Below, in pieces: positions 280 through 20,792 of a DNA stretch of 33,652 bases. Where the stretch lies: assembly GCA_020723165.1 (NCBI GenBank), contig DYJK01000030.1:1-33652 (forward strand). Direction: 5' to 3'. This DNA comes from Melioribacter roseus. GTDB lineage: Bacteria; Bacteroidota; Ignavibacteria; Ignavibacteriales; Melioribacteraceae. The notes under the pieces are model-generated. The model worked only from the letters and a program-made list of their open reading frames with translations, was not told the DNA's origin and made no database searches. Both the position numbers and the translations under genes were made by a program. The number at the start of each line of letters is the position of its first letter. The stretch's first letter is position 1.

Positions 280-424
280 TGTACTTTGTGTACTATTTTG
301 ATTCATAATACCATTATAGGATAAATTTTATTATAGATATTATGTTTTTTAATCATTTTCTAATTTTCTTATGGCATTAATTTGGATTTTAATAAGCTGA
401 TAAAAGTAAATGATAGGAACTAAC

Positions 425-1687
425 ATGGTTAGCTCTATACGAAGAATTCCATCAGGATTTTCTTTCATAGATAAAAATTGGGGCGGCGTTTATAGAGGCG
501 GAAGCTATTTATTAGTAGGTCCCCGAAAATCCGGAAGAACATTGGTTGGATTACAATTTGCCTTAGAAGCTGCTAAATCGTCCGAAGTTTGTCTCTTCTT
601 TACGATTATGCGTCCGAAAGATTTAATGATTCAAGCAGCATCTTTGAATTTTGATATCCAATCTTACATGAATCAGAATTTGATAATTGTTGTTAGGGTG
701 GCACCTCCAAATGATATTTATGATATGTATAATCCGGACGATTATTTAGTTGAATACTTCAACGATATAATTACGGTTGTTGATCAATATCATCCAACCC
801 GGATAATTTTTGATGAACTTACACCGTTCGTTGGTTTTAAAAATTTAGATCATTTAAGAGATACATTTCTACATACACTTGAAACAATTGAAGAAAGAGA
901 TATAACAAGTTTATTTGTAATCAGTGAACCGGCAACTCAAAAAGCTCAAAATGTAGTTGATGGATTAGGACAATTTGTTACCGGAATAATTGATCTAAAA
1001 AAAGAAGGCGGTGCCGCAGATAGATTTCACGGAGGCACAGTTACTATATCACCTAATGTTGGCCACACAGAAGGACAATTCACGGCTGATTATAGAATTG
1101 AGCCGTATAAGGGTGTAACAACAGAATTTTCTAAAGAACCTTATTATACCGCAACAGAAGAAACTCAGCCAACGTTGCCTAAACCAAGAACAATTAATAG
1201 ACCTACGAGAATAGATATTCCTTCCGAACCTTATGCGTTTTCAAATATTTATAATTACAACGACTTTTTACTGATATTAAATAATCAAATTGCGTTATAT
1301 AAAAGCACTGGGCAGACCTTTAATTTAATTTCATTCAAATTAGACCCGGCAGCGCAAGTAAAAGGATTGCTATCAATCAATCAATTACAAAATGCTATAA
1401 GACAAAGTACCACAAAAAAAGATAAAATTTGTATTGTAGAAAATAAAGTAATTGTGTTACTTGTAAGAGGAAGTTTAAAAGGTGTTGTAGATTTAATGTC
1501 TAATGTTCAAAACAATATGCCAAGTCAGGATCCGAATTATGTTAATGCTATTCTTGAATATATTTCGATTTATAATATGGAAGTTGATGAAAGAGCAGAA
1601 AATGCAGAGTCTATGATGGAATATGTTTTGAGTGCTGAGACTTCTGTTACTAATGCATATCAGCCGTTAAATAAATTTATAGGGTGA
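425..1687 (+). CDS. KaiC/RecA-like degenerate P-loop protein with GGDEF-like C-terminal domain
   Basis: About 420 residues. The N-terminal ~240 residues resemble the KaiC/RecA fold: a GGSYLLVGPRKSGRT stretch sits where Walker A belongs, but the invariant Lys is Arg (Arg38 from this start), and the tandem Glu seen in KaiC is replaced by TIMRPKD. A Walker-B-like RIIFDEL (Asp130) remains. Nucleotide hydrolysis is therefore doubtful. Residues ~270-415 have the spacing and hydrophobic pattern of a GGDEF fold, with CIVENKVIVLL in the place of the GGDEF hairpin; signature and inhibitory-site residues are absent. That assignment is inference. The layout recalls BcsE of cellulose secretion, which combines a degenerate NTPase with a degenerate GGDEF module. 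The ATG at 425 has AGGA six bases upstream and is preferred over ATG 410. The stop overlaps the next start (TGATG), so it is translationally coupled to the TPR-barrel gene. A regulatory or scaffold role in polymer secretion is inferred. Confidence 0.7.
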   Translation: MVSSIRRIPSGFSFIDKNWGGVYRGGSYLLVGPRKSGRTLVGLQFALEAAKSSEVCLFFTIMRPKDLMIQAASLNFDIQSYMNQNLIIVVRVAPPNDIYDMYNPDDYLVEYFNDIITVVDQYHPTRIIFDELTPFVGFKNLDHLRDTFLHTLETIEERDITSLFVISEPATQKAQNVVDGLGQFVTGIIDLKKEGGAADRFHGGTVTISPNVGHTEGQFTADYRIEPYKGVTTEFSKEPYYTATEETQPTLPKPRTINRPTRIDIPSEPYAFSNIYNYNDFLLILNNQIALYKSTGQTFNLISFKLDPAAQVKGLLSINQLQNAIRQSTTKKDKICIVENKVIVLLVRGSLKGVVDLMSNVQNNMPSQDPNYVNAILEYISIYNMEVDERAENAESMMEYVLSAETSVTNAYQPLNKFIG

Positions 1688-4600
1688 TGAAGGGCAGTGC
1701 AAAAATATTTTTTGCAATATGTTTAATTTTTACCACGATTATTTTTCCCCAAGATAGATCGGAAGGATTAAAACGCCAAGCCCAGTTGCTGATGAATGAA
1801 GGGCGTTATAAAGAAGCTATCGATCAATTCAACAAGTACGTTGCTGCTAATCCTCAAAAAGCCGATGGCTACCATCAACGCGGTTTATGCTACGAGAAAA
1901 CTACAGAATATCAATATTCGGTTCTTGATCTACGAAGAGCCAGAAGATTAGACCCGGGTAATCCAGAAATTCAAAGAGATTTAAATCGTGTAATTTCAAT
2001 TTGGCATCGACAATTATATCAAAAAATAGAGGGACATAAACGAGATATTGCAATTGATCCAAACTATGCTTTTAGCTATCTCGAAATTGGAAAAAGTTAT
2101 CGATGGCTTGAAGAATGGAATAACGCAGAAATTTGGTACGATGAATATTTAAAACGCGATGACAATGCCTCACCGGACGAAATTATTCGCTACACGGAAA
2201 TTCTTGCTAAAACCGGTTCGATCACCAAAGGTGAAAAAATATTAAAAATATTTGTTGATCGTTATCCTGAAGATTGGAGATTGTGGAGCAGATACGGTTA
2301 TTTCACTTTATGGCTCGGTAAATTCAAAATTGCCGAGGATGCATTTGTAAAATCATTAGGTTTTAAACCGTTCTTCAAAGAAGCTGAAGACGGGCTTGAT
2401 CTGGTAAGAAATCAAGCATACCTTGTTCAATATCAGCCGCGATCTTATGAACGTGTTTATCCTATCGATAGATATTATGCTGTACTAAACAAAGACCCGG
2501 AAAATGATCAAGTAAGATTTGATTTGATTAATGAATTGATGACTGCTAATCGTTATGAGGAAGCATATCAACAATTGCAGCTTTTGCAAGGTAAATATGT
2601 TAACGATGAGAGATTTCAATCGTTGTTGAAAACAATCAGTGACTACCGCGACAGCACATACAGTAATGTAATATCCCAATACACTGAAATATTGAAAAAT
2701 GATCCTTCCAACAAAGAAGCAGTTTTAAAATTATCAGAAGCTTATGCTAATCTCTTTTATTATGATAGTGCGATTGAAGTATTAAGAGAGTATTTAGAGT
2801 TAATACCTGATGATGAACAGCTTGATGTGAGATTTATGTATGCAAAATACAGCGCATGGAATTATGAGTGGGAAAATTCGATTGCTCAACTGAATAAATT
2901 ACTTGAACTAGATCCGAATAATTTGGATTATCAATTGTTAAGAGGGCAGATTGCCGTATGGACTGTACTTGATTTTGACATCGGAGAAAAATATTTATTA
3001 AATGTGATTGCTTATCGCCCAAATGAACTTAGCGCTTATATATCTTTAACATCGCTCTATTCATGGAAAAAAGATTTTCCAAATGCGAAAAAATACCTTG
3101 ATGAGGCTAAAAGAATTGCGCCGAATAACCCTGAAGTAGAAAGTGCACAAAGCAACTACGAACTTCATCTTTCAGCATATGAAGAACTAAAAGTTTTTGA
3201 AATTAAAGCAGAAGCCGGGAAACTTGTTCTTGATGGCGATTGTGAAGGAGCCCGTCATAAATATGAAGAATATTTTACTAAGCGCACTGCACCATCAAGA
3301 GATGAACTTATTGAATATGCTGACATTGTTACATGTGCCGGCGATTATTCGAAAGCAATTGAAATATATGATCAATTATTAAATGAAGAATTCGACTACC
3401 GCCTGGCATTACAGAGGGCTAAAAACTATTATTTTAATAAGGATAGTCTTTCTGCCGTTAATGAATTAGAAAGTTTGAATAGGTTAAGACCGGATGATAA
3501 TGAAACTAAAATGTTTTTAGCAGATGCTTATGCCGTAACGCTGCAAACATCGAAAGCCGACTCAATCTACCAGGAATTACTTTCAGTAACGACAGATTCG
3601 ACAGAAAGAAAGACACTTCATCAAAGGATGGCTATTTTAGGTGAGTATTATATTCGTAACAAAGAATTGAATAAAGCAGATGAAATTTACAATAACTTAT
3701 TGGCAACGGTATATGATCCGGAGATAGTTCAAGATGTAAACCGACGAAGGTTGTATCTTGGAGATGCTTATGCATTAAATGACGAATGGGGAAAAGCCGA
3801 AGATATATATGATGAACTATTGGATACTGCTTCGGACACTGCCGAAATAAGAATGTTAAAACAGAGAATCGAATGGATTCCACCATCGGGATTCAGAAAA
3901 GGGATTACAAGTTTTGGAAATCTGCTCTATTATTTTGTTCCTACAAATATTGGCTTATCACCTTTTTCAAATTACTATGTTGATAATCAAGATTTCCGAT
4001 TAACAACATATGGATTAAGAGTAGATGGAGGTTTTATAGGTTTTCTCGGATTGGGAGCTCTGTGGAGCAGAACAAATATTGATGTTGGATCTTTCGATAG
4101 AAATTTTACTACGTTCAAAGGGGTTGCAACATTATTCTTTTCGAGAATTGTCTCTCTTAGTGCAAGTTACGGCAATCTTAATATTCCAGGTGAACCTAAC
4201 AAGTCTGTTGGAGATTTAGCTATAAGAATCGAGGAACCAAATCGTTTTTCATTAGTAGGATATTATGAAAATAATGATGCAAGGTTATTGTTATATTCGC
4301 CAAATATGTTATTCACAAGACTTAAATCACAGCTGTATCGTTTCTCAGGGTATTATCAGCACCGGGATGTGATGAGGATTTCAGCAACATATTCTTATTA
4401 CGATATATCAGATAATAATGAAGGTAACGACATTCAGTTTAGATTAGGTAGAAAATTTTTTGACAACGGAATGTTTGGATATGAGTATTTCTTTTCCGAT
4501 TATGCATTTATTTCGCAATACTATTATTCGCCGCAAAATTTTTCTTCACATAGTATATGGGGTGAATATATTTATAATCCGGATGAATCATTAAAAACAC

Positions 4601-4791
4601 GATTTGGAGGTAAAATTGGCTATGTTCCCGATGTAGATTTTATTCTAAGTGAATTTTTTAGTGAAGTTAGCTATTACCCATTTAAGCTACTGAATATTAC
4701 AGCAAGATTAGGACTATCAAATAGTTTTCGATATGATTCAAGTTATAAATCTCTTAATGTTTCAGTATCAGCATATTTGTCGGTCTTTTAA
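1687..4791 (+). CDS. TPR-repeat outer-membrane beta-barrel protein, exopolysaccharide export (PgaA/BcsC-like)
   Basis: 1034 residues. It has an N-terminal signal peptide (KIFFAICLIFTTIIFPQ). Next comes a long TPR superhelix, residues ~25-725, with many recognisable 34-residue units such as GRYKEAIDQFNKYVAANP and YDSAIEVLREYLELIPDD. The last ~300 residues (from ~730) form a probable outer-membrane beta barrel: alternating aromatic and polar strands and a terminal Phe, the usual barrel-assembly signal. This order, periplasmic TPR followed by a C-terminal barrel, is that of PgaA and BcsC, which lead beta-linked polysaccharides through the periplasm and out of the cell. ATG 1687 overlaps the previous stop; GTG 1684 is the only nearby alternative. 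With the GT2 synthase downstream, the inferred job is polymer export. Which polymer is exported cannot be read from the sequence. A YaiO-like barrel without an export role is the main alternative. Confidence 0.78.
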   Translation: MKGSAKIFFAICLIFTTIIFPQDRSEGLKRQAQLLMNEGRYKEAIDQFNKYVAANPQKADGYHQRGLCYEKTTEYQYSVLDLRRARRLDPGNPEIQRDLNRVISIWHRQLYQKIEGHKRDIAIDPNYAFSYLEIGKSYRWLEEWNNAEIWYDEYLKRDDNASPDEIIRYTEILAKTGSITKGEKILKIFVDRYPEDWRLWSRYGYFTLWLGKFKIAEDAFVKSLGFKPFFKEAEDGLDLVRNQAYLVQYQPRSYERVYPIDRYYAVLNKDPENDQVRFDLINELMTANRYEEAYQQLQLLQGKYVNDERFQSLLKTISDYRDSTYSNVISQYTEILKNDPSNKEAVLKLSEAYANLFYYDSAIEVLREYLELIPDDEQLDVRFMYAKYSAWNYEWENSIAQLNKLLELDPNNLDYQLLRGQIAVWTVLDFDIGEKYLLNVIAYRPNELSAYISLTSLYSWKKDFPNAKKYLDEAKRIAPNNPEVESAQSNYELHLSAYEELKVFEIKAEAGKLVLDGDCEGARHKYEEYFTKRTAPSRDELIEYADIVTCAGDYSKAIEIYDQLLNEEFDYRLALQRAKNYYFNKDSLSAVNELESLNRLRPDDNETKMFLADAYAVTLQTSKADSIYQELLSVTTDSTERKTLHQRMAILGEYYIRNKELNKADEIYNNLLATVYDPEIVQDVNRRRLYLGDAYALNDEWGKAEDIYDELLDTASDTAEIRMLKQRIEWIPPSGFRKGITSFGNLLYYFVPTNIGLSPFSNYYVDNQDFRLTTYGLRVDGGFIGFLGLGALWSRTNIDVGSFDRNFTTFKGVATLFFSRIVSLSASYGNLNIPGEPNKSVGDLAIRIEEPNRFSLVGYYENNDARLLLYSPNMLFTRLKSQLYRFSGYYQHRDVMRISATYSYYDISDNNEGNDIQFRLGRKFFDNGMFGYEYFFSDYAFISQYYYSPQNFSSHSIWGEYIYNPDESLKTRFGGKIGYVPDVDFILSEFFSEVSYYPFKLLNITARLGLSNSFRYDSSYKSLNVSVSAYLSVF

Positions 4792-4868: not shown

Positions 4869-6167
4869 ATGAAAAAACTAACACTTATCTTACTATCACT
4901 TTTTTTATTATTCTCAGGACAATTATTTCCGGCAGATAGAATTTGTGATGTCGAAGAATTTTTATTGATAGATAATCCGGAAGTATTCTTATCGTTAACT
5001 TACATTTCAAGTTCGGCCTTTATTGACAATTCGTTTGTAGCCACTCAGAAACAACTTGGTAAATTTGTACCAATTACCGGTAATGTAAACCAGCTTAAAG
5101 TTTTTTTCGATGCACTAAAGAACGTCGATAATAAAGTTATCAGGATAGCTCACTACGGTGATTCGTTAATTCAAGGTGATGTTATTTCTGAATATTTAAG
5201 AGATAGATTTCAAAAAAAATTTTCAGGTAAAGGTGCCGGGTACCTTGCAATTATTTCTAATGACATTAAAATTAGAAATTCAACTAAGCACACATACTCT
5301 GATGATTGGAATTATGTTGCAATCACTACCCGCAATCCAGATAGATTACCTTTCGGAATTGGAGGGTCGGTTGCTGTTCCCAAACATGGAAGCTGGGTTA
5401 AGTATCAAGCAACTCAATATTTAAGTTCTACCAACTCGTTCGACTTGATTAAAATATATTACAGTCATGCTGATGAAAATAGTACTATCGAATATACTGT
5501 CAATGAAAAAGCTTATAAAAAAATAAATTTAAAACGGGGTGAGAATGTTCAAGAATTAATACTCGAGTTGGGAAAGAATTCCACTTCTATTGAAATAAAA
5601 TTTATATCGGGTAAAATTCCATACTTATATTCTGTCAGTTTAGAATCAGGTGATGGTGTTTATCTTGATAATTTTGCTATGCCCGGGAATACCGGTTCAT
5701 CATTATTAGATATTCCCAAAAGTGTAATATCTGATTTTAATAAATACAACGAATACAGACTTGTAATTTTAAACTACGGGGCTAATGTTTCGTCACCAAA
5801 CAAAGGTATATATACACTTTACGAAAATAAGATGGTGACACTTATTGAAGAATTTAAGAAATTATTCCCCAAAGCTGGATTTTTATTGGTTAGTGTTGGT
5901 GATAAAACTGCCAAAAAGGGTAATAGTTTTGTTACAAATCCAGATGTTCCACTTTTGCTTGAATCCCAAAAACGGATTGTAGCGAAAACTAACATTGCTT
6001 TCTGGAATCTATGGGAAGCGATGGGTGGCATCAATTCAATGATTGAGTGGGTTAATGCAAAACCACCTATGGCACTTAAAGATTTTGCTCATTTCACTCC
6101 TAATGGCGGTGCAAGAGTCGCAGAGTTACTATTTGATGCTATTATTGATTCGTACAATAAGTTCTAA
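4869..6167 (+). CDS. Secreted SGNH/GDSL-family hydrolase
   Basis: 432 residues with a signal peptide (LTLILLSLFLLFSGQLFPA). The SGNH blocks are visible: HYGDSLIQGD with nucleophile Ser99, the block III Gly-x-Asn at G304-A-N306, and the block V Asp-x-x-His at D405-F-A-H408. The opening HYGDSLIQGDVISEYLRDRF resembles peptidoglycan or polysaccharide O-acetylesterases of the Ape1 type, which begin with a similar GDS-x-x-x-x-D stretch. Between the blocks lies a ~130-residue insert (about 155-290) that looks like a beta-sandwich module, as in two-domain SGNH acetylesterases. It lies 77 bp after the export-barrel gene, with no clear ribosome binding site. By position it probably trims or adds acyl groups on the polymer in the periplasm; peptidoglycan is an alternative substrate. 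The family is well supported, the substrate is not. Confidence 0.75.
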   Translation: MKKLTLILLSLFLLFSGQLFPADRICDVEEFLLIDNPEVFLSLTYISSSAFIDNSFVATQKQLGKFVPITGNVNQLKVFFDALKNVDNKVIRIAHYGDSLIQGDVISEYLRDRFQKKFSGKGAGYLAIISNDIKIRNSTKHTYSDDWNYVAITTRNPDRLPFGIGGSVAVPKHGSWVKYQATQYLSSTNSFDLIKIYYSHADENSTIEYTVNEKAYKKINLKRGENVQELILELGKNSTSIEIKFISGKIPYLYSVSLESGDGVYLDNFAMPGNTGSSLLDIPKSVISDFNKYNEYRLVILNYGANVSSPNKGIYTLYENKMVTLIEEFKKLFPKAGFLLVSVGDKTAKKGNSFVTNPDVPLLLESQKRIVAKTNIAFWNLWEAMGGINSMIEWVNAKPPMALKDFAHFTPNGGARVAELLFDAIIDSYNKF

Positions 6168-6425: not shown

Positions 6426-7853
6426 ATGTCTGACAAACAAAGATTTCAAATAGCGCTTGATAACCGGGAAATTAAACCTCCGCAAAGAAATGTTTCAAAA
6501 GAAAATCTACGCACAATTTTCATTTCAGGTTTAATCTCAATTCTACTGATAATCAGTATTATAATTTTTATGCCTTTGACTGTGTTAACGTGGAGTGGTC
6601 TGTTTGTTTATTCTTCTATCGTCTCACTTGTAATTTTCTTATTTATACTTTTGATACGATATTTTGCAATATTGTTCTTAGCATATTTTTATATGACAAG
6701 ATATTCTGTGCATTCTAAACCCGGTTATTTTCCCTTTGTTTCGATCATAGTCCCGGTATTTAATGAAGCCGTTATATTAAGAAATTCAATCGAATCCTTG
6801 CTTGATATTGACTACCCCAATTATGAAATAATTATTGTTAATGATGGATCGACGGATGATACTGCCGCCGTGGGTGAAACATTAGTGGGTTACCATCAAG
6901 GTAGAACCGGTATGATAAAAGTTTCGTTGATTAATAAACCTAATGGTGGCAAATCGAAAGCGCTGAATGCCGGTATTCAATATTCAGAAGCGCAGTTCGT
7001 TTTATGTATGGATGGTGATTCGCAGTTAACTTCAAATACATTGAAGATGGCTATGAGACACTTTGACGATCCGGCTGTTGGTGCTGTTGCCGGCAACGTT
7101 AAAGTGCAGAATCGTAAAAAGATGTTGACCGATCTTCAGGCACTTGAATATTTGGAAGGACTTAATCTTGCGCGTAGTGCACAAGGTTTTATTCAGATGG
7201 TTAATATAATTCCAGGTCCTATCGGGGTTTTTAGAAAAATTACTTTACGGGATGCCGGTTTTTATTCGAGCGATACTTTTGCGGAAGACGCAGATGTCAC
7301 ATTAAAAATTTTAGCTAAAGGATGGAAAATAATTTACGAACCGAATGCTATTGCATATACTGAAGCGCCATCAAGTATCTACCAACTACTAAAACAAAGA
7401 TATCGTTGGACAAGAGGTATACTGCAAGCTATTAGAAAACATAAAAGATATCTTTACAATCCAACAGTTAATTTTAATAATAGTTTTATAATGTGGTCGA
7501 TGTTCTATGAGGCTTTAATATGGCCGGCTATGAATATTTTTGTTAATGTTTATTTTATTATTGTAGCGCTTTTATATGGTATTCATATAACGCTATTTTT
7601 GTGGTGGGTGGGGATTGCTGTCTTAGATCTAATGTCAGCTGTTTTTTGTATAGCCGCTGAAAAAGAAGAATTTAGATTGGTTCCATATGCAATTGTCTAC
7701 CGTTTATTTTTTATTTTATTAATTGATGTAACCAAAGCAGCTGCTACAGTAGAAGAATTTTTAGGTGTAAAGATGACTTGGGGGAAACTAGAGCGTACCG
7801 GAGCTGGAAATGTTCCCTCAAAGAAACCGATACCAAGTGTTGCCGGTAAATAA
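6426..7853 (+). CDS. Processive GT2 glycosyltransferase, PgaC/IcaA-like polysaccharide synthase
   Basis: 475 residues. Two membrane segments (about 29-54 and 57-90) precede a cytoplasmic family 2 catalytic domain, and at least three more follow (about 355-410 and 420-445). All processive-synthase motifs are present: Asp140 in IIIVNDGSTDD, the Asp-x-Asp at D196-G-D198, the base in EDAD (Asp288), and QRYRW (Q324, R327, W328). Such enzymes join nucleotide sugars into a beta-linked chain and push it through the inner membrane. The layout is closest to the poly-N-acetylglucosamine synthases PgaC/IcaA, but hyaluronan- or cellulose-type products cannot be excluded. There is no PilZ domain, so control by cyclic di-GMP would have to come through a partner. 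The small membrane protein follows after only 24 bp, and a sigma-54-like promoter lies just upstream. Confidence 0.9.
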   Translation: MSDKQRFQIALDNREIKPPQRNVSKENLRTIFISGLISILLIISIIIFMPLTVLTWSGLFVYSSIVSLVIFLFILLIRYFAILFLAYFYMTRYSVHSKPGYFPFVSIIVPVFNEAVILRNSIESLLDIDYPNYEIIIVNDGSTDDTAAVGETLVGYHQGRTGMIKVSLINKPNGGKSKALNAGIQYSEAQFVLCMDGDSQLTSNTLKMAMRHFDDPAVGAVAGNVKVQNRKKMLTDLQALEYLEGLNLARSAQGFIQMVNIIPGPIGVFRKITLRDAGFYSSDTFAEDADVTLKILAKGWKIIYEPNAIAYTEAPSSIYQLLKQRYRWTRGILQAIRKHKRYLYNPTVNFNNSFIMWSMFYEALIWPAMNIFVNVYFIIVALLYGIHITLFLWWVGIAVLDLMSAVFCIAAEKEEFRLVPYAIVYRLFFILLIDVTKAAATVEEFLGVKMTWGKLERTGAGNVPSKKPIPSVAGK

Positions 7854-7877: not shown

Positions 7878-8360
7878 ATGGAATTAATTCCAATACTTTC
7901 TTTAATAATTCTTGTCGCAACAATTTCAACATTCATTTTGGCGGTTGGGGCTTACATACTTTATAAGGTTAGAGAACGTAAAGGTGTTGGTGCACAAGCA
8001 CCACAGCCAGCTGCTATTCCGGCAGAATATGTTACACCGGCACCTCTTGTTGAACAGAGACCGGCTCAACCGGAAAGAAGAACTTTTGAAGTTGTAGCAC
8101 ATCAGCAAGAATATGATTATCAGCGCCAGCCTTCGTATCCACCCCAACAAGAGAATAGGGGACCTGAACTGAGGCCTACTTTTGTTGGCTCTGGACCTGG
8201 ATATTCTGAAAAATATCAAAAACTTACTCCAACCGGTGAAAGATCAACTGAAGGAGATAAGTATGCTTCAAAGCGGAAATTTATGAGATATACAAACGAA
8301 GGTTACGTTGAAACTTCGAAGCAAGAAAAGAAACAAGAGGATAACCTAAGGTGGCGGTAA
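7878..8360 (+). CDS. Small single-pass membrane protein with Pro/Gln-rich tail
   Basis: 160 residues of unknown function. An N-terminal membrane helix (about 4-30, IPILSLIILVATISTFILAV) is followed by the basic stretch KVRERK, which suggests the tail is cytoplasmic. The rest is low in hydrophobic residues and rich in Pro, Gln, Glu and Arg, so it is probably disordered. A GAGG-type ribosome binding site precedes the ATG. The gene sits between the GT2 synthase and the pseudo-deacetylase gene and overlaps the latter by 10 bases. By position it could be a small synthase partner similar in role to PgaD, which is also a short membrane protein next to PgaC, although I see no clear sequence match to PgaD. 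No homologue is recognised. Confidence 0.7.
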   Translation: MELIPILSLIILVATISTFILAVGAYILYKVRERKGVGAQAPQPAAIPAEYVTPAPLVEQRPAQPERRTFEVVAHQQEYDYQRQPSYPPQQENRGPELRPTFVGSGPGYSEKYQKLTPTGERSTEGDKYASKRKFMRYTNEGYVETSKQEKKQEDNLRWR

Positions 8361-10252
8361 AAAGTGTTCGCGGCTTAAGAGTTAATTATCTAATAATATT
8401 TCTCAGCGGCCTTGTACTTCTTATTACTGGTATTCTTGTCTTTTTGCTCATAGTTAGAAATATATATGGCAGCTATGAGATTAAAGAAATATTGCCCACA
8501 AAAAACAATCTTAAATCATTATCCTCTGAGGATAGATCCGGGAAAGTTGCAATACTCTATTCCCAGTATACAGAAAATATGTTACCTTCCGGCAGTACAT
8601 GGTTAAAGGATAACATTGATTATTGGAAGAAGTTTACAAAAAATGCCCGGATGAATTATGATATCATTTCGGACCAAACAATTGAACTTGCAAAACATCT
8701 TGAATACAAATTAATCGTCCTTCCAGGTTCTAAATCCCTAAGTGATAAACAAATTATTCAGTTAAAGAGATATCTTGAAAAAGGAGGAAGTTTATTTGTT
8801 ACCGGCGGACCAGCGACTTTTTCTGACGAAGGAAAGTGGCGTGGGTGGGAATTCTTTACCGAAGTTTTTGGAATGAAATTCAATAGGGAAATTAAACCGG
8901 AGGAAACATATAAGGTTCATACACTACGAGGTAATTTACCTTTAACTGCCGGTGTACCAACCGGTTATACATTGAAAATAGCAACTTGGGATCGCCCAAT
9001 TTATGCTGAAGTTCTTGAACCAAGGACTACACAAGTAAGTTTTTGGTATGATTTCAGGAAAGAAGCCGGCTTGGTTCGTGAAGAAATAGAAAAAAGTGCT
9101 GGTATAGCTTTTGGCTCATATGGTAAAGGACGTTTTGTTTGGTACGGATTTGAATTGAGTTCAGTTCTTGGTGTTCAGAAAGATTATATATACTTCGAAA
9201 AACTTTTTAATAATTCACTAAATTGGTTGACATACCAGCCGACAGCTTTTGTGAAAGATTGGCCTTCGCCTTATGATGGAGCTTTGGTTTTTATTCCTAC
9301 ATTAACTGAAAATATTGGAAATATTACAACATTAAATAGTTTAATAAATTTCAAACAGTTCCCGGCAACATTTTTTATTAATCCTGAAAAGGGCTTGAAA
9401 AATTTAGGTCTCTTAAAATCATTAGGCAGCAAGGGAGATGTAGGGGCAATAATTGACATCGGTTTTATTGAATTTCCCGAAGATACTCTTAACAAACTAT
9501 TCTCTAAAGAGACACAGTTTTCAAATATTGGTTTTGCGACAGACACTCTTTCAAAAATATTGGGTAAAAAAGTTGATGCTATTATGCCGCAATATGGTTA
9601 CTATGATGATAATACATTGCAAGCAATGGCATCTAAAAATATTAGTTTCCTTGTTACAGATTCTTTAACAGATCGATCTGTACCGGAAATCAGGTTCAGA
9701 AATGATAAACCAATTATGGTTATTACAAAGACTGCACGCGATGATTATGAAATCGTGAAAAATTACGGGTTGGTCAATACCGATTTTCAACGTTATACTT
9801 ACGAGGAGGATATCGATAGAATTTTATTTGAAGGTGGATTATATGTTTTTAAAGTACATACTAATTATCAACTTCAACCTCAGTATGCTTCAGTCATTAG
9901 GGATGTTTTACGTTACGCAAAAAATAAAAATATGTGGATTACTTCACTTAATGGGTTAAAGGCATGGTGGTCTAGAAGGCAAGGTGTTGAAGTTAGGTAC
10001 GAAGAAAGAAGCAAAAGAAGAATTGCAGTAGAATTTACTAATCCTAGCGATAACCCGACCACTGATATTGTTGTGCAAGTTAACCTGAACAAAAAAGTAA
10101 AGAATGTAATCGTTTCATCAGATATAATTAATACCGATATACCAAGATATGAATTAAGGAATGACAACCAAACGATCTATTTTTATTTAGAGAGAATGGG
10201 ACCTCATGAGACACGATCTTTGTTGGTAGACTTTGATAACATTGAAGCGTAA
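8351..10252 (+). CDS. Membrane-anchored protein with amidotransferase-like and degenerate NodB polysaccharide-deacetylase-like domains
   Basis: 633 residues. An N-terminal membrane helix (about 12-35) anchors a large extracytoplasmic part. Residues ~70-300 look like the class I amidotransferase/ThuA-like fold (KLIVLPGSKSLSDKQ, then EKGGSLFVTGGP). Residues ~305-540 follow the NodB deacetylase order: PSPYDGALVFIPTLTEN stands where the catalytic TFDDG region belongs, and IMPQYGYYDDNTL (Met412 to Gly416 core) replaces the usual RPPYG loop. The Asp-Asp pair, the His-x-x-x-His metal site and the Arg are missing, so deacetylation is unlikely. A beta-sandwich tail of ~90 residues ends the protein. 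The GTG start overlaps the preceding gene by 10 bases; GAGG lies 10 bases upstream. Active deacetylases such as PgaB modify the polymer in related systems, so a polymer-binding role is inferred. Domain limits are approximate. Confidence 0.65.
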   Translation: MAVKSVRGLRVNYLIIFLSGLVLLITGILVFLLIVRNIYGSYEIKEILPTKNNLKSLSSEDRSGKVAILYSQYTENMLPSGSTWLKDNIDYWKKFTKNARMNYDIISDQTIELAKHLEYKLIVLPGSKSLSDKQIIQLKRYLEKGGSLFVTGGPATFSDEGKWRGWEFFTEVFGMKFNREIKPEETYKVHTLRGNLPLTAGVPTGYTLKIATWDRPIYAEVLEPRTTQVSFWYDFRKEAGLVREEIEKSAGIAFGSYGKGRFVWYGFELSSVLGVQKDYIYFEKLFNNSLNWLTYQPTAFVKDWPSPYDGALVFIPTLTENIGNITTLNSLINFKQFPATFFINPEKGLKNLGLLKSLGSKGDVGAIIDIGFIEFPEDTLNKLFSKETQFSNIGFATDTLSKILGKKVDAIMPQYGYYDDNTLQAMASKNISFLVTDSLTDRSVPEIRFRNDKPIMVITKTARDDYEIVKNYGLVNTDFQRYTYEEDIDRILFEGGLYVFKVHTNYQLQPQYASVIRDVLRYAKNKNMWITSLNGLKAWWSRRQGVEVRYEERSKRRIAVEFTNPSDNPTTDIVVQVNLNKKVKNVIVSSDIINTDIPRYELRNDNQTIYFYLERMGPHETRSLLVDFDNIEA

Positions 10253-10389: not shown

Positions 10390-11643
10390 GTGAATCAAAA
10401 GAAAAATATTACCAATCTAAAACTGTTATTCGCAGTTTTGCTAACTGCCGCAGCAATTACCGGGTGTGTAGAAAACTTAACAGATACGACACAGAATGCA
10501 ACCCCTACAATTGAAATTTTCTCGCCAGCGACTAACGACAGCGTACAAATTGGTGAGAATACGATAAACTATTATGCAGCAGATGGAACCGGTGGAAGTG
10601 GATTATCATTCTATGAGGTTTATCTTAATGATGGATTTATACAAAGGTTCGAACAAAACTCTGACGGAACTAATCCCGAAATATATTTGACTGTTGATTC
10701 AACACTAATAGGTTCTAGAATTTCTTACTTTGTTAAAGTGTATAATGAGAATGGACGATCAAAAGAAAGCACCAAGCAAACAAATATTTATGTAAAAGAT
10801 AAACCTCCGGCAGCCCCCTCAGATTTATTCTTAACAAGAATTAATGATTTTTCAGTTAATATGTTGTGGAGTGATAATTCGAGCAACGAATCAGAATTTG
10901 AGTTGTGGCGAAAAGACGGGGGATCAGGCATATACCGTAAGATTAAAACATTGCCTCCAAATACAATTAGTACTGATGATAATGGTCTATCTCCATTTGT
11001 AGATTATTTTTATAAGGTAAGAGCTCATAATAGTTCAGGTTATTCTGATTTCTGTGATGAAGCAAGCACATCGAGTATTCCGGGTGGTCCTTGGAATTTG
11101 GAAGCTGAAGCTATCGGCGCCAGTGTAGTACGCCTTAAATGGACAGATTTTGCTGTCAACGAATCCGGGTTTATCATTGAACGAACGAATTCATTTACAA
11201 ACAGTTTTGAACGTGTTGCTATAGTCAATCGAAATATTACAGAATACGAAGACAATACTGTGCAAGCAAGTACGGGCTATAGATATCGTCTTGCTTATTA
11301 TACTACAACTTCTATAAGCGGCTATTCGAATGAGGTTTCTATATCAACATTTTACATAGATGTTAATGGCCCGACTAATTTAACTGCCGAATATTATTCA
11401 CCGAACAATGTTGTAATATTGAATTGGGAGGATAATACAAATCTTGAGAAAGGTGTTATTGTCGAACGTAAAGTCGATTCCGGAGAATTTGTTGAGTATG
11501 GAAAATTTGATCAAGACGATATTACAGCAGCAAATGATGCCGGTGTTGAAAGCGGTAGGACTTATTATTATAGGGTCAGACAAATTTTAGGTACCAAAAC
11601 TTATACACCATATTCAAATACGGTTAATATTACAATTCCGTGA
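10390..11643 (+). CDS. Lipoprotein with one Ig-like and three fibronectin type III domains
   Basis: 417 residues. A signal peptide ends in the lipobox AITGC (Cys26), so it is probably an outer-membrane or periplasmic lipoprotein. Residues ~38-135 resemble a bacterial Ig-like fold (a TPTIEIFSPATNDSV opening). Three FN3 repeats follow at about 138-230, 233-322 and 328-417; each begins with Pro-x-x-Leu and carries the W-x-D-x-S/T-x-x-E strand (LWSDNSSNESEFEL, KWTDFAVNESGFII, NWEDNTNLEKGVIV). There is no catalytic domain. The start is GTG without a clear ribosome binding site. The stop lies eight bases before the hybrid-kinase start, so the two are probably co-transcribed. Binding to the polymer or to cell-surface partners is inferred from the domains and from the cluster. 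Confidence 0.75.
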   Translation: MNQKKNITNLKLLFAVLLTAAAITGCVENLTDTTQNATPTIEIFSPATNDSVQIGENTINYYAADGTGGSGLSFYEVYLNDGFIQRFEQNSDGTNPEIYLTVDSTLIGSRISYFVKVYNENGRSKESTKQTNIYVKDKPPAAPSDLFLTRINDFSVNMLWSDNSSNESEFELWRKDGGSGIYRKIKTLPPNTISTDDNGLSPFVDYFYKVRAHNSSGYSDFCDEASTSSIPGGPWNLEAEAIGASVVRLKWTDFAVNESGFIIERTNSFTNSFERVAIVNRNITEYEDNTVQASTGYRYRLAYYTTTSISGYSNEVSISTFYIDVNGPTNLTAEYYSPNNVVILNWEDNTNLEKGVIVERKVDSGEFVEYGKFDQDDITAANDAGVESGRTYYYRVRQILGTKTYTPYSNTVNITIP

Positions 11644-11651
11644 TTAATTAA

Positions 11652-14600
11652 ATGGCTACTGAAACAAAAAATACTGATTCAAAAACTCATTCAAACTTAC
11701 CAAGTTTAATTATTGATAAATCCGGAAGGGTGATTGCGTCGAATGTAGAATTAAAGAATGTTCTTCCGGCTTTGCAGCCTAATATTAATTTCTTTGATAT
11801 TTTTAATGAGAAACAACTGCTGACTATACAAAGAATTTTTATTGATGCGAGAAAATTTGATGCTACTGCAAAAGATATTATAGAATTGGTTATAGATAAT
11901 AATGCTAAAAATTTTGAAATAATTTTTAATCCCCTTAAAAGTGAAAATAATGTTTATTACCTAATCACATTATCGGAGCTTCAAGAATCAAAATCTACCG
12001 CTGTTACCACAAAGTTTTCTATTTCGATTCCTGAATTAGAAAAAATAACATCTGATAAGAGAATATTATCGATAGTAAATAAAATAAAATTATCATATCC
12101 GTTCACTTTTATCGAGAAAGCCAAGATTCAAAAAGAAATAAATGAGTTAAACGAATTCTTCTGGCTAAAAAACATAGATGGTAAATTTATTTTAATAAAT
12201 GATGCATACTCTCAAACACTTGGGTTTTCCTCTTCACAAATTGAAAATAAAAACGAACAAGATTTTCTGCCTAAGTACTTAATAAACCTTTATAAAATAG
12301 TTGAACAATATATTGTGGAATCAACAAATGCTGTAGTATTGGAGGGTTCTGCAATACCGTCATTAAATGGCGTTAATAAGAATATTCACATTGTACAATT
12401 TCCTATCATAGATCTAGATAATAAAGTTGTAGCTATCATAGGATTCTCCCAAAAAACGGCTGTAAAACAAATCACCGAACAATCAATCTTGAACCCGGGA
12501 TACTTCAAAAATCTTTCTGAAGCAGTTTTACTACTAGACGCTGAGAACAAAATCGAAGCGTATAGCAATGAATTTGTAAAAATATTGCTGTTAAACGATC
12601 AAGTGGATTATAAGAAGAATGATTTACACAAGATATTCGATAAAGATTTTGTTCAATTACTGGAAACGTATTTAGCTGATAATAAAAACACTGAAAGTCT
12701 TGATACAACTTTTACGTTTGTTGAAAAAGGGAATTTGAAAACAGAAATAAAGGTCTATAAATTTTTTGACTTCGGTGGTATTTATAATGGGGCGCAAATC
12801 ATATTTATACAAAAGAATGAGTTGCAGTTGTTGACTGAAAGTAAGGCACAACTCTATGATTCAATTATTCAAAACAGTCCGGTTGCGATGTTTATTTATG
12901 ACTTAGAAAATTTGAAATTCCTTGAAGTAAACGATTCTGCCCTAAAGCTTTATGGATATAAGAGAAATGAATTTTTAAATATGGATCTTACTGATTTATA
13001 CGCTCCTGAAGATATTCAAACATTAATACAATCGGGCGATAATAAAACTTTAAATTCGGGTTTATGGCGTCATAAAAAAAGTGATGGTACTTCAGTACTT
13101 GTAGAACTAAGTAGGAATTCAATCGAGTACAAAGGTAAAAAGGCACATCTCAATTTAGTACGTAATGTTACTGATGAAATAAATGAAAAGAAGCGCGTTC
13201 AATTATTACAATCCGTTTTTGAAAATACAAGTGACTTAATAATTTTGGCGGATAAAGACGGTTTTATTAAAGAGATAAACGAACATGTAACAAAAAAATT
13301 TGGTTACTCAAAGAAAGAGTTGGAGTCTAGACCGTTTATAAGTCTTGTCTCCGATGATGATAGAGCTAAGGTAAATAAAAATATTTTTCATTCGGGTTTA
13401 CTAAAAACCTCGTCAATCGAAGTAGATATTAAAAGACCGTCTGGTAATATGTTGAAAAGTTTGATTGTTGCTACGCCTATCAAAGATTATAATGGGGATG
13501 TTGAAGAATACACTCTGGTTATTAAACCAAACGAAGAAAAATCCGGTACAAAAGATTTGAAACATACCCAGGATGAAACCTTAGACAAAATTGATGCATC
13601 ATTCCTATCGAATATGTTCCATGAAATACTAACGCCTATCAACGTGATATTGGGTTTCACTCAAGAATTATGGGAAAGTCTCGGTACTCCTTCCGATGAA
13701 CAAAAAGAAGCTGTAGATATTATTAAGGAAAATCAGAAACTACTTATGCAGATTATGGACAATGCCGTTGAGTACTCTGCACTGCAGCAGAAAATAATAA
13801 AATTTAGACCGGAAGAATTTAGATTTATTGAAGTACTGGATGAGCTAAAGGAGAATACAAAGAAGTTTTCCGAATCGAAAAAGTTAGAAATTGTGTACGG
13901 CAAAATATCATCGTCATTAACTGCTGAGACCGATCGCCAGAAGTTAGTTTCATTAATAAGTGAGTTTTTGAAATTTGCAATTCAAATCACGAAGGAAAAT
14001 ACTCTCTTTTTATCTGCCAAAAATTATGATGACAATAATTTTGTTGTAACCGTTAAAGATACGAGATCGATAATTACCCCGTTTTTATATAAAGGATTGA
14101 ACGATGTTTTATCAGATGAAGAAACTGCGAGCAGAAAAAATTTCGGATTCTCAAGATTCTCGATGAGATTAGTTAATAAATTAATCCAGTTATTATCGGT
14201 TAGAAAAGAAGCTGTTATGAAAGATAATGATGTTATTGAATTCGGCTTGGTTATACCGATAAAGTTTGTACCCGTTGAAAAAGTATCGATAGAAGTTGAA
14301 TCACCTAAGCAAATTAAAGAATCAAGAGTTGTACAAAAACCTTATATCAAAGAACAACCAATATCAACTGTTCCGTCACAGCCAAAAGAATTAGACTTAT
14401 CTCAGCTATCGTGCTTATATTTAGAGGATCAGGTTGATTCACAAATTCTATTTAAAAACCAATTGAAGGAATTGAAAAGTATAGAATTTGCACCAAGCTT
14501 TGAAGTTGCTCTGCCTTTATTAAAAACGAAAAAATTTGATTTTATTATTATGGATATTAATTTACAAGGTGAGTATAACGGTTTGGATGCTTTGCGTATT

Positions 14601-14765
14601 TTACAAAAGATGCCGGGTTACAAAGATTTTCCTATAATTGCATCGACAGCATATATGCAGCCGGGTGCAAGAGATAATTTTATAGCCGCCGGGTTTACAG
14701 ATTTTATTCCTAAGCCGCTTTTACGGGATAAAGTTATTGAAACCTTAAAAAGAATTATGAAATAA
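11652..14765 (+). CDS. Soluble multi-PAS hybrid histidine kinase with degenerate ATPase domain and C-terminal receiver
   Basis: 1037 residues with no membrane segment or signal peptide. Four or five PAS domains are visible, at about 15-115 (weak), 165-275, 285-395, 401-515 and 522-630. A HisKA-like helix pair follows with the phospho-acceptor His657 in MFHEILTPIN. The ATPase domain is worn: the N-box Asn is absent (EFLKFAIQIT, about 770-780), the G1 Asp-x-Gly-x-Gly reads DTRSIIT (Asp803), and only traces of G2 remain (NFGFSRFSMRL). The C-terminal receiver (about 915-1037) is complete: acidic pair Glu925-Asp926, phospho-acceptor Asp968, Thr999 and Lys1021. ATP binding is therefore doubtful, while receiver phosphorylation remains possible. 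As the last gene of the run it probably senses a cytoplasmic signal and controls polymer production or secretion; the partner is unknown. Confidence 0.82.
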   Translation: MATETKNTDSKTHSNLPSLIIDKSGRVIASNVELKNVLPALQPNINFFDIFNEKQLLTIQRIFIDARKFDATAKDIIELVIDNNAKNFEIIFNPLKSENNVYYLITLSELQESKSTAVTTKFSISIPELEKITSDKRILSIVNKIKLSYPFTFIEKAKIQKEINELNEFFWLKNIDGKFILINDAYSQTLGFSSSQIENKNEQDFLPKYLINLYKIVEQYIVESTNAVVLEGSAIPSLNGVNKNIHIVQFPIIDLDNKVVAIIGFSQKTAVKQITEQSILNPGYFKNLSEAVLLLDAENKIEAYSNEFVKILLLNDQVDYKKNDLHKIFDKDFVQLLETYLADNKNTESLDTTFTFVEKGNLKTEIKVYKFFDFGGIYNGAQIIFIQKNELQLLTESKAQLYDSIIQNSPVAMFIYDLENLKFLEVNDSALKLYGYKRNEFLNMDLTDLYAPEDIQTLIQSGDNKTLNSGLWRHKKSDGTSVLVELSRNSIEYKGKKAHLNLVRNVTDEINEKKRVQLLQSVFENTSDLIILADKDGFIKEINEHVTKKFGYSKKELESRPFISLVSDDDRAKVNKNIFHSGLLKTSSIEVDIKRPSGNMLKSLIVATPIKDYNGDVEEYTLVIKPNEEKSGTKDLKHTQDETLDKIDASFLSNMFHEILTPINVILGFTQELWESLGTPSDEQKEAVDIIKENQKLLMQIMDNAVEYSALQQKIIKFRPEEFRFIEVLDELKENTKKFSESKKLEIVYGKISSSLTAETDRQKLVSLISEFLKFAIQITKENTLFLSAKNYDDNNFVVTVKDTRSIITPFLYKGLNDVLSDEETASRKNFGFSRFSMRLVNKLIQLLSVRKEAVMKDNDVIEFGLVIPIKFVPVEKVSIEVESPKQIKESRVVQKPYIKEQPISTVPSQPKELDLSQLSCLYLEDQVDSQILFKNQLKELKSIEFAPSFEVALPLLKTKKFDFIIMDINLQGEYNGLDALRILQKMPGYKDFPIIASTAYMQPGARDNFIAAGFTDFIPKPLLRDKVIETLKRIMK

Positions 14766-14879: not shown

Positions 14880-14952
14880 GGGCAGATAGCTCAGTCGGTA
14901 GAGCAAAGGACTGAAAATCCTTGTGTCGGCGGTTCGATTCCGTCTCTGCCCA
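14880..14952 (+). tRNA. tRNA-Phe (anticodon GAA)
   Basis: A full 73-base cloverleaf. The acceptor stem GGGCAGA pairs with TCTGCCC, the D stem is GCTC/GAGC, and the anticodon stem AAGGA/TCCTT holds the loop CTGAAAA, giving anticodon GAA for phenylalanine. The T arm is GGCGG-TTCGATT-CCGTC, with one G-T pair. The discriminator base is A and the 3' CCA is not encoded, so it must be added by CCA transferase. A terminator hairpin starts three bases downstream, so this is a single-tRNA transcript. Confidence 0.97.
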
Positions 14953-14954
14953 CG

Positions 14955-15103: not shown

Positions 15104-16351
15104 TTAATCAACACCCCAACTCTTAAGCAACTTATACAAACATAACTGATTATTATCCATGCTATATAAAATCAAGTGATTTGATGTTAAGCTGAATGCA
15201 CCACGATTCAAATTATTAGAATTTGAAAACCGATTAATTAATCTCCCATTTTTTAAGTCCCATATTTCAAATGAATCCACATCAAAAGTTACTACCAACA
15301 TATCTTTTTCTGATAATAAAACTTGTCCTATGTTCGCTTTAAATTTAGTAATTAATTTATGTGTTTCTAAATCGTATATGTTTACGAAGTCATTGACAGC
15401 TACAAACAAATTATTATTTAAGAAAAAGAATTGTATAAGATCGGTTGGCAAATAGGGAAGATATGGTTGCAAGTTATTTGTCAGTAGGTTTATCGAATAT
15501 AATTTACCATTATCATTAAAAACTAAGTCATTACCATCTGGTGAAAAAACAAAACTTGTTATAATCTTATCACTTTCATAAACAATTGATGGTTGCTTTG
15601 ATTGGATATCCCATGATATTATATCCGAACCATGTGAGAAATACAAATTTGATGAATATAATACATTACTTGTGGGATGAAATTTTAAATAATGACTTGG
15701 AGGTATCAATCCTCGTACATTTAAGGCGCCTATATGCTCTAAAGTATTATAATTCCAGAGATCAATAATTTTATCACGTGCTGATGCTATTATTTCCCCT
15801 TGTCTATCAATAGTAAATCCGTAGCCATAGCCAAAATTGCTAACTAAAATTTGTAGGTCATTTGTATTTCTTATTTCAAGTGATATTGGTGTTTTAGTAT
15901 AATTTATTGAAAAGAATGTATCATTGAATGGATGAAACTTTACATCTGTGGTTGAAATATTTTCTGTCTTAATAAGTTCTGCATTAATAACTTTATACTG
16001 TATTTTAATTGTATTAGAAAATCTACTGTCTCTTGGATAACTGTTAGCTTTAATTTTATACCAATAGGATTCAGTGGTATCGACTTGATTATCTGTAAAA
16101 TAATTAAGTTTCCAGTCAACCTCGGCGATTTTATTAAACGTATTACCGGTTGTTGATCGGTATATCGAATATTTTACTACTTCTTTTGAATTCTCTACCC
16201 AGTTAATTTTTATTGATGAGTTTGATAAAGCAGTGACAGATTTAATTATAGGAGGATCGATTTTATAATATTCTATATTTTGTAATTCATTGTCATTTAC
16301 ACAACTGGATATCACACAAACTAAAAGTATATATATCAAAATTGATTTCAT
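15104..16351 (-). CDS. Lipoprotein with FN3 domain and WD40-like beta-propeller
   Basis: 415 residues. A signal peptide with lipobox VISSC (Cys17) makes this a lipoprotein. Residues ~33-120 form one FN3 domain (KINWVENSKEVVKYSIYRS). The rest is a probable beta-propeller of WD40/YVTN type with repeats such as VKFHPFNDTFFSI, FVFSPDGNDLVF and FEIWDLKNGRLI, where the S/H-P-x-x-N/D turn and W/Y-D ends recur. It lacks catalytic motifs; such propellers usually bind proteins or glycans. It lies 153 bp downstream of the aldose epimerase gene on the same strand and may end the xylose transcript or have its own promoter: a short hairpin, AGGAATTTATTTCCT, lies in the gap. Function unknown; the link to xylose is only positional. 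Confidence 0.7.
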   Translation of the reverse strand: MKSILIYILLVCVISSCVNDNELQNIEYYKIDPPIIKSVTALSNSSIKINWVENSKEVVKYSIYRSTTGNTFNKIAEVDWKLNYFTDNQVDTTESYWYKIKANSYPRDSRFSNTIKIQYKVINAELIKTENISTTDVKFHPFNDTFFSINYTKTPISLEIRNTNDLQILVSNFGYGYGFTIDRQGEIIASARDKIIDLWNYNTLEHIGALNVRGLIPPSHYLKFHPTSNVLYSSNLYFSHGSDIISWDIQSKQPSIVYESDKIITSFVFSPDGNDLVFNDNGKLYSINLLTNNLQPYLPYLPTDLIQFFFLNNNLFVAVNDFVNIYDLETHKLITKFKANIGQVLLSEKDMLVVTFDVDSFEIWDLKNGRLINRFSNSNNLNRGAFSLTSNHLILYSMDNNQLCLYKLLKSWGVD

Positions 16352-16504
16352 AAAATCTATTAATTATTTTCAAAAAAAATGTAGGACTTTAATTATTTCT
16401 TCTCAATGCAATTATTTTATCTCTTATGAATAGGAAATAAATTCCTTTCTCTACTTTATGTCATTGAAACGTTACATTAAATTAATATTTAGACTAGTCT
16501 CTTA

Positions 16505-17656
16505 TTATTTAACCGAGAATTTATAAATAGCAGTATGTGTGTAAATTTCTCCGGCATTTAATCGAACAGTAGGGAATTGAGGATTATTTGGCGAATCAGG
16601 AAAATGCTGTGTCTCTAAACATAAGCCCGTTCTATACTGATATTTAATTCCACTTTTCCCGGTTATAGAACCATCTAAAAAATTTCCACTATAGAATTGT
16701 AGCCCAGGTTGATCTGTGAAAATTTCCATCAGTCTTCCACTTGAGGGATCATATAAACTCGCACATTTAAAAATCTTTTCCTGATGCTTATTCAATACCC
16801 AATTGTGATCATAACCTTTGCCAAATTTTAACTGTTCATTATTCATTTCGATATCTTTCCCAATTTTCTTTGGTGTGCGAAAATCGAAAGGCGTGTTTGC
16901 TACATCCATAAAATCTCCCAAAGGAATTAGTTTATCGTCAACCGGTGTAAATTGGTTGGCATCTATCATCAATTCGTGATCAAGGATTGTCTTTGTTAGG
17001 TCGCCGGTAAGATTGAAATAAGAATGATTAGTAGGATTGAGGATTGTATTTTTATCAGTTGTAGCGGAATAATCAATAACTAATTCATTATCGTTCGTTA
17101 AAATATAAGTGATATTTATTTCGACATTACCGGGATATCCTTCTTCGCCATCAGCACTAAAATGTTTTAATGTGATTTTCTCACCGTTTTTAGTTGTGTC
17201 ATATTCGGTTACAGTCCAGAGTTTCTTATTTATACCGTGCTTACCGCCATGCAGATGATTTTCGCCGTCATTAATAGTTAGTTGATATTCTTTCCCATCG
17301 AGTTTAAAAAATCCTTTTTTAATTCTGTTGCCGTATCTGCCTACTGCTGCACCAAAATATGATTTACATTTTTCATAATCTTGTACAGAATCATAACCAA
17401 GTACTACATCCTTATAAACGCCGTCTTTATCGGGGACAATTATTTTAACAATAACAGCACCATAATTTGAAATATCAACTTTGGCACCATTCTTATTTTT
17501 TAAAGTATAAACGAATACTTCACTTCCGTCTGATAATTTCCCGAAAGATTTTTTCTGCACCATTGCAGTGTTTTCAATTTGGGATTTACATGATAAGTTT
17601 AATATTAATGTTAAAACTAGAAGTGATAATAATTGAATAGTATTTTTCATCTTCAT
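16505..17656 (-). CDS. galM: Aldose 1-epimerase (mutarotase), exported lipoprotein form
   Basis: 383 residues. It interconverts alpha and beta anomers of aldoses. Family motifs are clear: NRIKKGFFKLDGKEYQL, ENHLHGG (about 132-138), the catalytic His211 in NPTNHSYFNL, and the catalytic Glu348 in GLCLETQHFPDSPN. Unlike the cytoplasmic GalM of enterobacteria, the N terminus has a signal peptide ending in LNLSC (Cys23), so the enzyme is probably anchored in the cell envelope and works on sugars before or during uptake. The ATG at 17656 is preferred to the GTG three bases upstream. It lies 76 bp downstream of xylA on the same strand, so xylose is the likely main substrate, although the family is broad. 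Two stop codons in a row end the gene. Confidence 0.9.
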   Translation of the reverse strand: MKMKNTIQLLSLLVLTLILNLSCKSQIENTAMVQKKSFGKLSDGSEVFVYTLKNKNGAKVDISNYGAVIVKIIVPDKDGVYKDVVLGYDSVQDYEKCKSYFGAAVGRYGNRIKKGFFKLDGKEYQLTINDGENHLHGGKHGINKKLWTVTEYDTTKNGEKITLKHFSADGEEGYPGNVEINITYILTNDNELVIDYSATTDKNTILNPTNHSYFNLTGDLTKTILDHELMIDANQFTPVDDKLIPLGDFMDVANTPFDFRTPKKIGKDIEMNNEQLKFGKGYDHNWVLNKHQEKIFKCASLYDPSSGRLMEIFTDQPGLQFYSGNFLDGSITGKSGIKYQYRTGLCLETQHFPDSPNNPQFPTVRLNAGEIYTHTAIYKFSVK

Positions 17657-17732
17657 CACTCGCTAATTATTGTTCATACTGAAAATATTTGATTGATGAT
17701 TGAGAATCCATTAATAATAATAAATTTTAAAA

Positions 17733-19061: not shown

Positions 19062-19148
19062 TCTTCACCTTTATATTTATTTAGTTAACAATTAATTCTC
19101 ATCTGCCATAATGATATTCTTTAACGTTCAATGTAAGTTATAATTAGA

Positions 19149-20633: not shown

Positions 20634-20676
20634 TAATTATTCTCCGTGTTGGTCAAATACTTTTATAAATAATTAC

Positions 20677-20693
20677 GGTGTATAAAATACACC
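20677..20693. promoter_or_regulatory. Perfect 17-bp palindrome, likely operator of the xylose regulator
   Basis: GGTGTATAAAATACACC has two 7-bp arms that are exact reverse complements around AAA. It lies in the 159-bp gap between the divergent xylB and regulator genes, 44 bp from the xylB start. Nudix-type sugar regulators bind palindromes of about this size next to their targets, so this is the best candidate operator. No second copy was found near xylA, galM or the downstream lipoprotein gene. Confidence 0.7.
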
Positions 20694-20737
20694 TATGAGC
20701 AAATATCCTACATTTATAATAAGTATTTTTATAATGT

Positions 20738-20765
20738 TTGACAAGCACGTTTAAGTTCATAATAT
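20738..20765 (+). promoter_or_regulatory. Promoter of the Nudix regulator gene
   Basis: TTGACA (20738-20743, exact -35 consensus) and TAATAT (20760-20765) are 16 bases apart. Transcription would begin about 20773, some 20 bases before the ATG. The operator-like palindrome lies 44 bp upstream of the -35 box, so the regulator might control its own gene only indirectly or by looping. Confidence 0.6.
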
Positions 20766-20792
20766 TGCGCTTACAGATTTCTTAAGGAATTT

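Follow-up and report, generated by a model that had tools for sequence, protein, structure and literature searches.

Protein A, a 633-residue product encoded at 8351..10252 in a 33,652-nucleotide stretch of Melioribacter roseus DNA (the window), is composed of a transmembrane (TM) helix, a GATase-like α/β/α domain, a NodB barrel that lacks the metal site, and a β-rich C terminus. We favor, with moderate confidence, its assignment as a membrane-tethered and catalytically dead subunit that handles the polymer at the exit of an exopolysaccharide synthase, which probably holds and guides the sugar chain rather than trimming it. Here, we computed the fold of the protein, the family-wide loss of motifs, the retention of D437 and H503, the conserved operon, the co-occurrence with the synthase, and the porin fold of a neighboring protein. 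The genes of the operon and the domains and motifs of protein A all lie on the + strand.

The protein A gene starts with GTG, overlaps the preceding ORF of a small TM protein (7878..8360) by 10 bases, and is present as a single copy in its own genome, with one match found there. Of 39 relatives, 33 carry the gene, as do 135 of the 164 genomes available for the order. The 38 orthologues share 41–82% identity with the window protein, which rules out a chance or mis-framed ORF; a decaying pseudogene is likewise ruled out by reading frames that are open in nearly all genomes and by many invariant columns. A few matches count one in-frame stop, with an open frame still of about 580–640 aa. Besides protein A, PF01522 is found in one other gene of the same genome, on a different contig, encoding a single-domain protein whose motifs, judged by eye, are kept.

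The AlphaFold2 model, built from the window protein and 38 orthologues (pLDDT 85, pTM 0.85), agrees with the domain layout of the initial annotation, which had described a NodB-like domain fused to an amidotransferase-like domain and a membrane anchor. The N-terminal TM helix spans residues 13–39 (8387..8467), with the highest 19-residue hydropathy value (2.96) at residues 14–16, and the basic residues preceding it suggest an N-in/C-out orientation. The GATase1/GH42-like α/β/α domain, comprising residues 58–297 (8522..9241), matches 3rht (Z 19.0, 2.9 Å over 201) and GH42-type proteins (Z about 20–21) in a structure search with the model. Cys is absent from the entire window protein, the GATase-like domain included, and there is thus no lipobox. 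Residues 298–545 (9242..9985) form the NodB (β/α) barrel, for which the NodB protein 3rxz is the best among the matches listed (Z 25.0, 2.5 Å over 238), PuuE 3cl6 also ranking high (Z 22.8, 3.6 Å over 241). PF01522 matches the window protein weakly, below its cut-off (E 0.0081), but reaches E ≤ 0.01 in 32 of the 39 aligned orthologues, with a best value of 5.7e-10. The C-terminal β-rich domain, residues 546–633 (9986..10249; start approximate), contains seven strands in the model.

A full-length Foldseek search returned human NDST1 as the best match (9f6z, E 5.9e-12, 574 columns) and PelA as the second distinct protein (9cgy, E 1.3e-10), with low TM-scores (0.29–0.33 of the query) and large rmsd, such that domain placement may differ. 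Structures of BA3943, titled as a CE4 pseudoenzyme, are among the Foldseek matches; Agd3 (6NWZ) is absent among the 50 structural matches listed. A single-protein sequence search yielded no significant solved relatives, and a profile search yielded PdaA-type NodB proteins and GH42 proteins (E 0.0006–0.003).

Motif columns in protein A were called by alignment to a tandem paralogue, B, with intact motifs, and their positions therefore rest on sequence alignment rather than on model coordinates. Motif-complete B proteins align strongly to the family profile (conditional E-values of 3.8e-120 and 1.3e-114), which fixes most motif columns in protein A, MT2 less surely. The former MT1 (residues 315–319, 9293..9307) reads IPTLT, with both the base and the metal Asp missing. 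The region of the former MT2 (residues 361–372, 9431..9466), with the sequence GDVGAIIDIGF, contains no His; its placement is ambiguous by several residues, and no His pair is available either way. The former MT3 (residues 411–416, 9581..9598) reads IMPQYG, having kept the Pro and lost the Arg. The replacement of the TFDDG motif, the His pair, and the RPPYG Arg, as initially annotated, is thus confirmed.

This loss is general, as the homologue alignment proposed with the initial annotation now reveals. Among 90 aligned rows, not all of them independent because the window appears two times and some genes are represented by overlapping copies, none carries HxxH/HxxxH or the MT3 Arg, and one carries an Asp at 315–318. 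Dereplication of the orthologues at 90% identity corrects this redundancy and leaves 77 representatives, with HxxH/HxxxH in 0/77, the MT3 Arg in 0/77, and an isolated Asp (316–318) in 1/77. The only protein A representative with an MT1 Asp (VADVS), L135:1321-3213, also lacks the His pair.

The broader claim that the catalytic residues are gone holds for MT1, MT2, and MT3 only, since the MT4 Asp D437 (9659..9661) is kept in 77/77 representatives and the MT5 His H503 (9857..9859) in 76/77. R463-D464-D465 (9737..9745) is invariant in 77/77, as are E486, D487, and Q507 individually. The sole representative without H503, a single case, is the protein A of genome G028, which adjoins an active-like B. 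Measured against a CE4/NodB deacetylase, protein A thus possesses the fold, the MT4 Asp, and the MT5 His and lacks the MT1 Asp pair, the MT2 His pair, and the MT3 Arg. Judged from these sequence motifs, the barrel would be unable to bind the catalytic metal, and protein A is accordingly predicted not to be a metal-dependent deacetylase. The near-invariance of D437, R463, D464, D465, E486, D487, H503, and Q507 exceeds the needs of a passive scaffold and counts against the reading we favor.

Conservation is unevenly distributed along the protein. Columns at least 97% identical number 55/240 in the GATase-like domain, 8/133 in the metal half of the NodB barrel, 22/115 in its C-half, and 5/88 in the β-rich domain, making the GATase-like domain the most conserved part of protein A and the former metal half of the barrel a weakly conserved one. 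A distant Bacteroidota clade of protein A, represented by 7 proteins analyzed of 13 strong distant matches, extends this pattern: the 95%-conserved columns persist there in 33/65 positions of the GATase-like domain, 4/10 of the metal half, 9/27 of the C-half, and 3/5 of the β-rich domain. Metal ligands are absent in all seven. The distant proteins carry an Arg at the MT3 column in 5/7 and the MT5 His (H503) in 0/7, the reverse of the Ignavibacteriales proteins, in which the MT5 His is kept and the MT3 Arg is gone; D464 is lost in 7/7. In a midpoint-rooted tree of 49 rows, made up of one in four full-length A proteins and four selected ones, a single branch (100/98) separates A and distant A from the B proteins; several branches of this tree are long, and some rows are biased in composition. 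The simplest account would be an early loss of the metal site in A, after which the leftover residues decayed differently and the GATase-like domain stayed constrained.

The initial annotation had placed protein A beside exopolysaccharide synthesis, and its gene indeed lies in a conserved operon with a GT2 synthase. The operon is headed by a KaiC-like ATPase (410..1687), the first gene of the conserved cluster, which is conserved alongside it, distant loci included. It is followed by a TPR protein (1684..4791) with a C-terminal 16-stranded barrel (3889–4791; model pLDDT 91.6), for which the polysaccharide outer-membrane porin 4y25, which we take to be PgaA, is the best PDB match (TM 0.72/0.74); BcsC and PelB entries are also among the barrel matches, amid general porins. 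An SGNH/GDSL-type protein (4869..6167), detected in some loci but not in many others, may add an acyl group to the polymer or remove one. The GT2 glycosyltransferase (6426..7853) is closest to the PgaC/IcaA model and then to NodC, scoring 198.7 bits against a PgaC/IcaA cut-off of 422.3 and also falling below the NodC cut-off; hyaluronan synthases are among its solved relatives.

Between GT2 and protein A lies the small single-TM protein, which has a low-complexity tail. Its first 30–36 residues, the TM segment, are about 67–77% identical even in distant Bacteroidota loci, far better conserved than protein A (about 25–28% in the same loci), which suggests that this helix has a fixed contact, perhaps with the synthase. 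Downstream of protein A are an FN3-domain protein (10390..11643), which carries a lipobox-like TGC close to the N terminus and is conserved across loci, and a PAS/histidine kinase/receiver hybrid regulator (11652..14765), found in most loci. A tRNA-Phe (gaa) is located just downstream of the operon (14880–14953). Further on, 15104–21479 encodes an aldose epimerase, a xylose isomerase-like protein, an FGGY kinase, and a NUDIX/AraR-type regulator, and is probably a pentose utilization cluster.

Protein A and the synthase co-occur closely. Of 40 loci, 39 have GT2 upstream of A and the remaining one begins inside A; the distant A loci have GT2 upstream in 7/7. Across the 164 genomes of the order, a GT2 orthologue is found in 129 and A in 135, and all 129 GT2 genomes have A; the 6 A-only genomes are all <90% complete. 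Among 109 good genomes, 96 have both GT2 and A and 13 have neither. A literature search, mostly of records without full texts, returned no description of an exopolysaccharide operon with a KaiC-like ATPase or of a synthase operon encoding a three-domain NodB pseudoenzyme. The available part of the genome paper on Melioribacter roseus refers to GT2 enzymes in general terms only, and PMC7112194 contains none of the five lineage names looked for.

The nearest architectural counterpart is PelADA (CE26-CBM114) of Bacillus cereus, which, in the available text, is composed of a TM helix, an α/β/α domain, a distorted (β/α)7 barrel, and a C-terminal β-sandwich (PMC13254593). It is encoded in a pel operon and is a Zn-binding, active enzyme with D262/D263, HxxxH, and H488; its TM helix is modeled in contact with the exporter PelG, and its N-terminal domain is a carbohydrate-binding module (PMC13254593). 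Likened by that partial description, protein A has the same order of parts, a similar length (633 aa versus 610 aa for PelADA), and exopolysaccharide synthesis genes nearby. In protein A, model and fold match support the TM helix and the two domains that follow it, and the last domain is seen as seven strands only. Unlike PelADA, protein A lacks the metal triad and the base, and its operon contains a PgaC/NodC-like GT2 and a TPR porin rather than pel genes.

A similar arrangement is described for Aspergillus Agd3 (CE18-CBM87), in which a GATase1-like domain without the Cys-His-Glu triad precedes a NodB barrel and a C-terminal β-sandwich (PMC7229062, available text). Protein A likewise has a GATase1-like domain without a catalytic Cys upstream of NodB. 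Agd3 is secreted, carries its catalytic motifs, and has a GATase-like domain demonstrated to be a carbohydrate-binding module (PMC7229062, same text), whereas protein A is membrane-tethered and lacks the MT1–MT3 residues, and its GATase-like domain is only a putative binding module by comparison with that account. Human NDST1, the best full-length fold match, shares the N-terminal and NodB domains with protein A: its available description gives a Rossmann-like domain without catalytic function that precedes a NodB-type deacetylase, with a His-His-Asp triad and a sulfotransferase domain (PMC10864358), the latter two features being NDST1's own. In PelA, too, a mixed α/β domain accompanies the deacetylase, according to the part of PMC12022489 available.

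By analogy, protein A looks like a PelADA-type protein that has kept its tether and a putative binding domain and given up the chemistry. As the counterpart of the GATase-like domain is a carbohydrate-binding module in both Agd3 and PelADA, this domain is a putative polymer binder, and polymer binding by protein A is plausible. Protein A would be anchored in the inner membrane next to the GT2 synthase, its soluble domains extending into the periplasm; the emerging polymer would be bound mainly via conserved aromatic and basic residues of the GATase-like domain and then handed to the TPR/16-stranded porin.

PgaB is an outer-membrane lipoprotein. Protein A is instead anchored by an N-terminal TM helix, with no Cys and no metal site. 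In the sources as available, PgaB/IcaB are NodB2 proteins with an N-terminal MT5 (PMC10967932), and PgaB acts together with PgaA at the outer membrane (PMC9384988); in protein A, by contrast, the MT5 His, at residue 503, follows MT4 (NodB1 order). Motif order, anchor type, and the missing lipobox rule out a PgaB-like reading, and the initial proposal that the protein sits where PgaB-type deacetylases act gives way to the PelADA/Agd3 domain order. At the level of the operon, the PgaC-like GT2 and the TPR protein with a 16-stranded porin resemble PgaABCD (PNAG), whereas the operon contains no PgaB and its GT2 falls short of the PgaC cut-off.

PuuE allantoinase is a purine-pathway enzyme without a polysaccharide context. 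Its available description, with the MT1–MT3 residues missing, the MT4 Asp and MT5 His kept, and no metal (PMC10967932), corresponds to the pattern seen in protein A. Because of this shared pattern, the rival we take most seriously, although we consider it unlikely, is that the Ignavibacteriales barrel has become a metal-independent enzyme as in PuuE: a deacetylase that lost its metal would have been reused as a different enzyme at the synthase exit, with a new polysaccharide-processing site built from D437, R463, D464/D465, E486/D487, and H503 and acting on the polymer or a substituent. The near-invariance of these residues and of Q507 and the structural match to 3cl6 argue for it. The distant A proteins, however, lose H503 and D464 in 7/7 and yet keep the GT2 neighbor, and the active-like paralogue shares D437, D464, D465, D487, H503, and Q507 with protein A, which may make them remnants. 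CE4 pseudoenzymes offer further precedents for a NodB fold that has lost its motif residues, namely BA3943, Ba0150, and Encephalitozoon EcCDA, the last lacking the MT1 Asp, the MT2 His pair, and the MT3 Arg (PMC10967932, available text); for these, unlike protein A, the accounts available report neither a three-domain, TM-anchored architecture nor a synthase operon.

It is improbable, in our assessment, that protein A instead serves as a regulatory partner of another enzyme, such as paralogue B or the SGNH protein. Pseudoenzymes often play such roles, and tandem B genes with the architecture of A adjoin it on the 3' side in several Ignavibacteriaceae and in 6/7 distant loci. In one genus, motif-complete B lies next to a dead A in two genomes (G028 and G476; L107:8090-9904, L113:1498-3228), keeping D-x-E, H-x3-H, R-P-P, and L-x-H. 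Against this, 15 of 17 B proteins analyzed lack HxxH/HxxxH and RPP/RAP, no B gene was found in the window genome (protein A itself being the only match), and many loci show no SGNH gene. A still metal-dependent deacetylase with a relocated site formed by D464/D465/E486/D487/H503 is the least credible of the alternatives, and we consider it very improbable. These residues are all but invariant across the order, and the base-activating Arg of PelADA and Agd3 is also found later in the sequence, according to the available text of PMC13254593; nevertheless, neither an MT1 Asp nor any His pair is present in the 77 representatives, apart from the one isolated Asp, and the distant clade lacks the proposed residues in part. 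Moreover, D464, D465, and D487 coexist with a complete canonical site in the active-like paralogue and hence do not replace it.

In Pel systems, the polymer escapes detection altogether when deacetylase activity is missing, according to the available portions of PMC13254593 and PMC10269871. In protein A, a membrane-tethered architecture is kept without the metal site across the order and further out in the phylum, and the protein comes and goes with its synthase. The binding or guiding role of such proteins is thereby separated from the catalytic one and made directly testable, and protein A also points to a conserved operon for exopolysaccharide that includes a KaiC-like ATPase.
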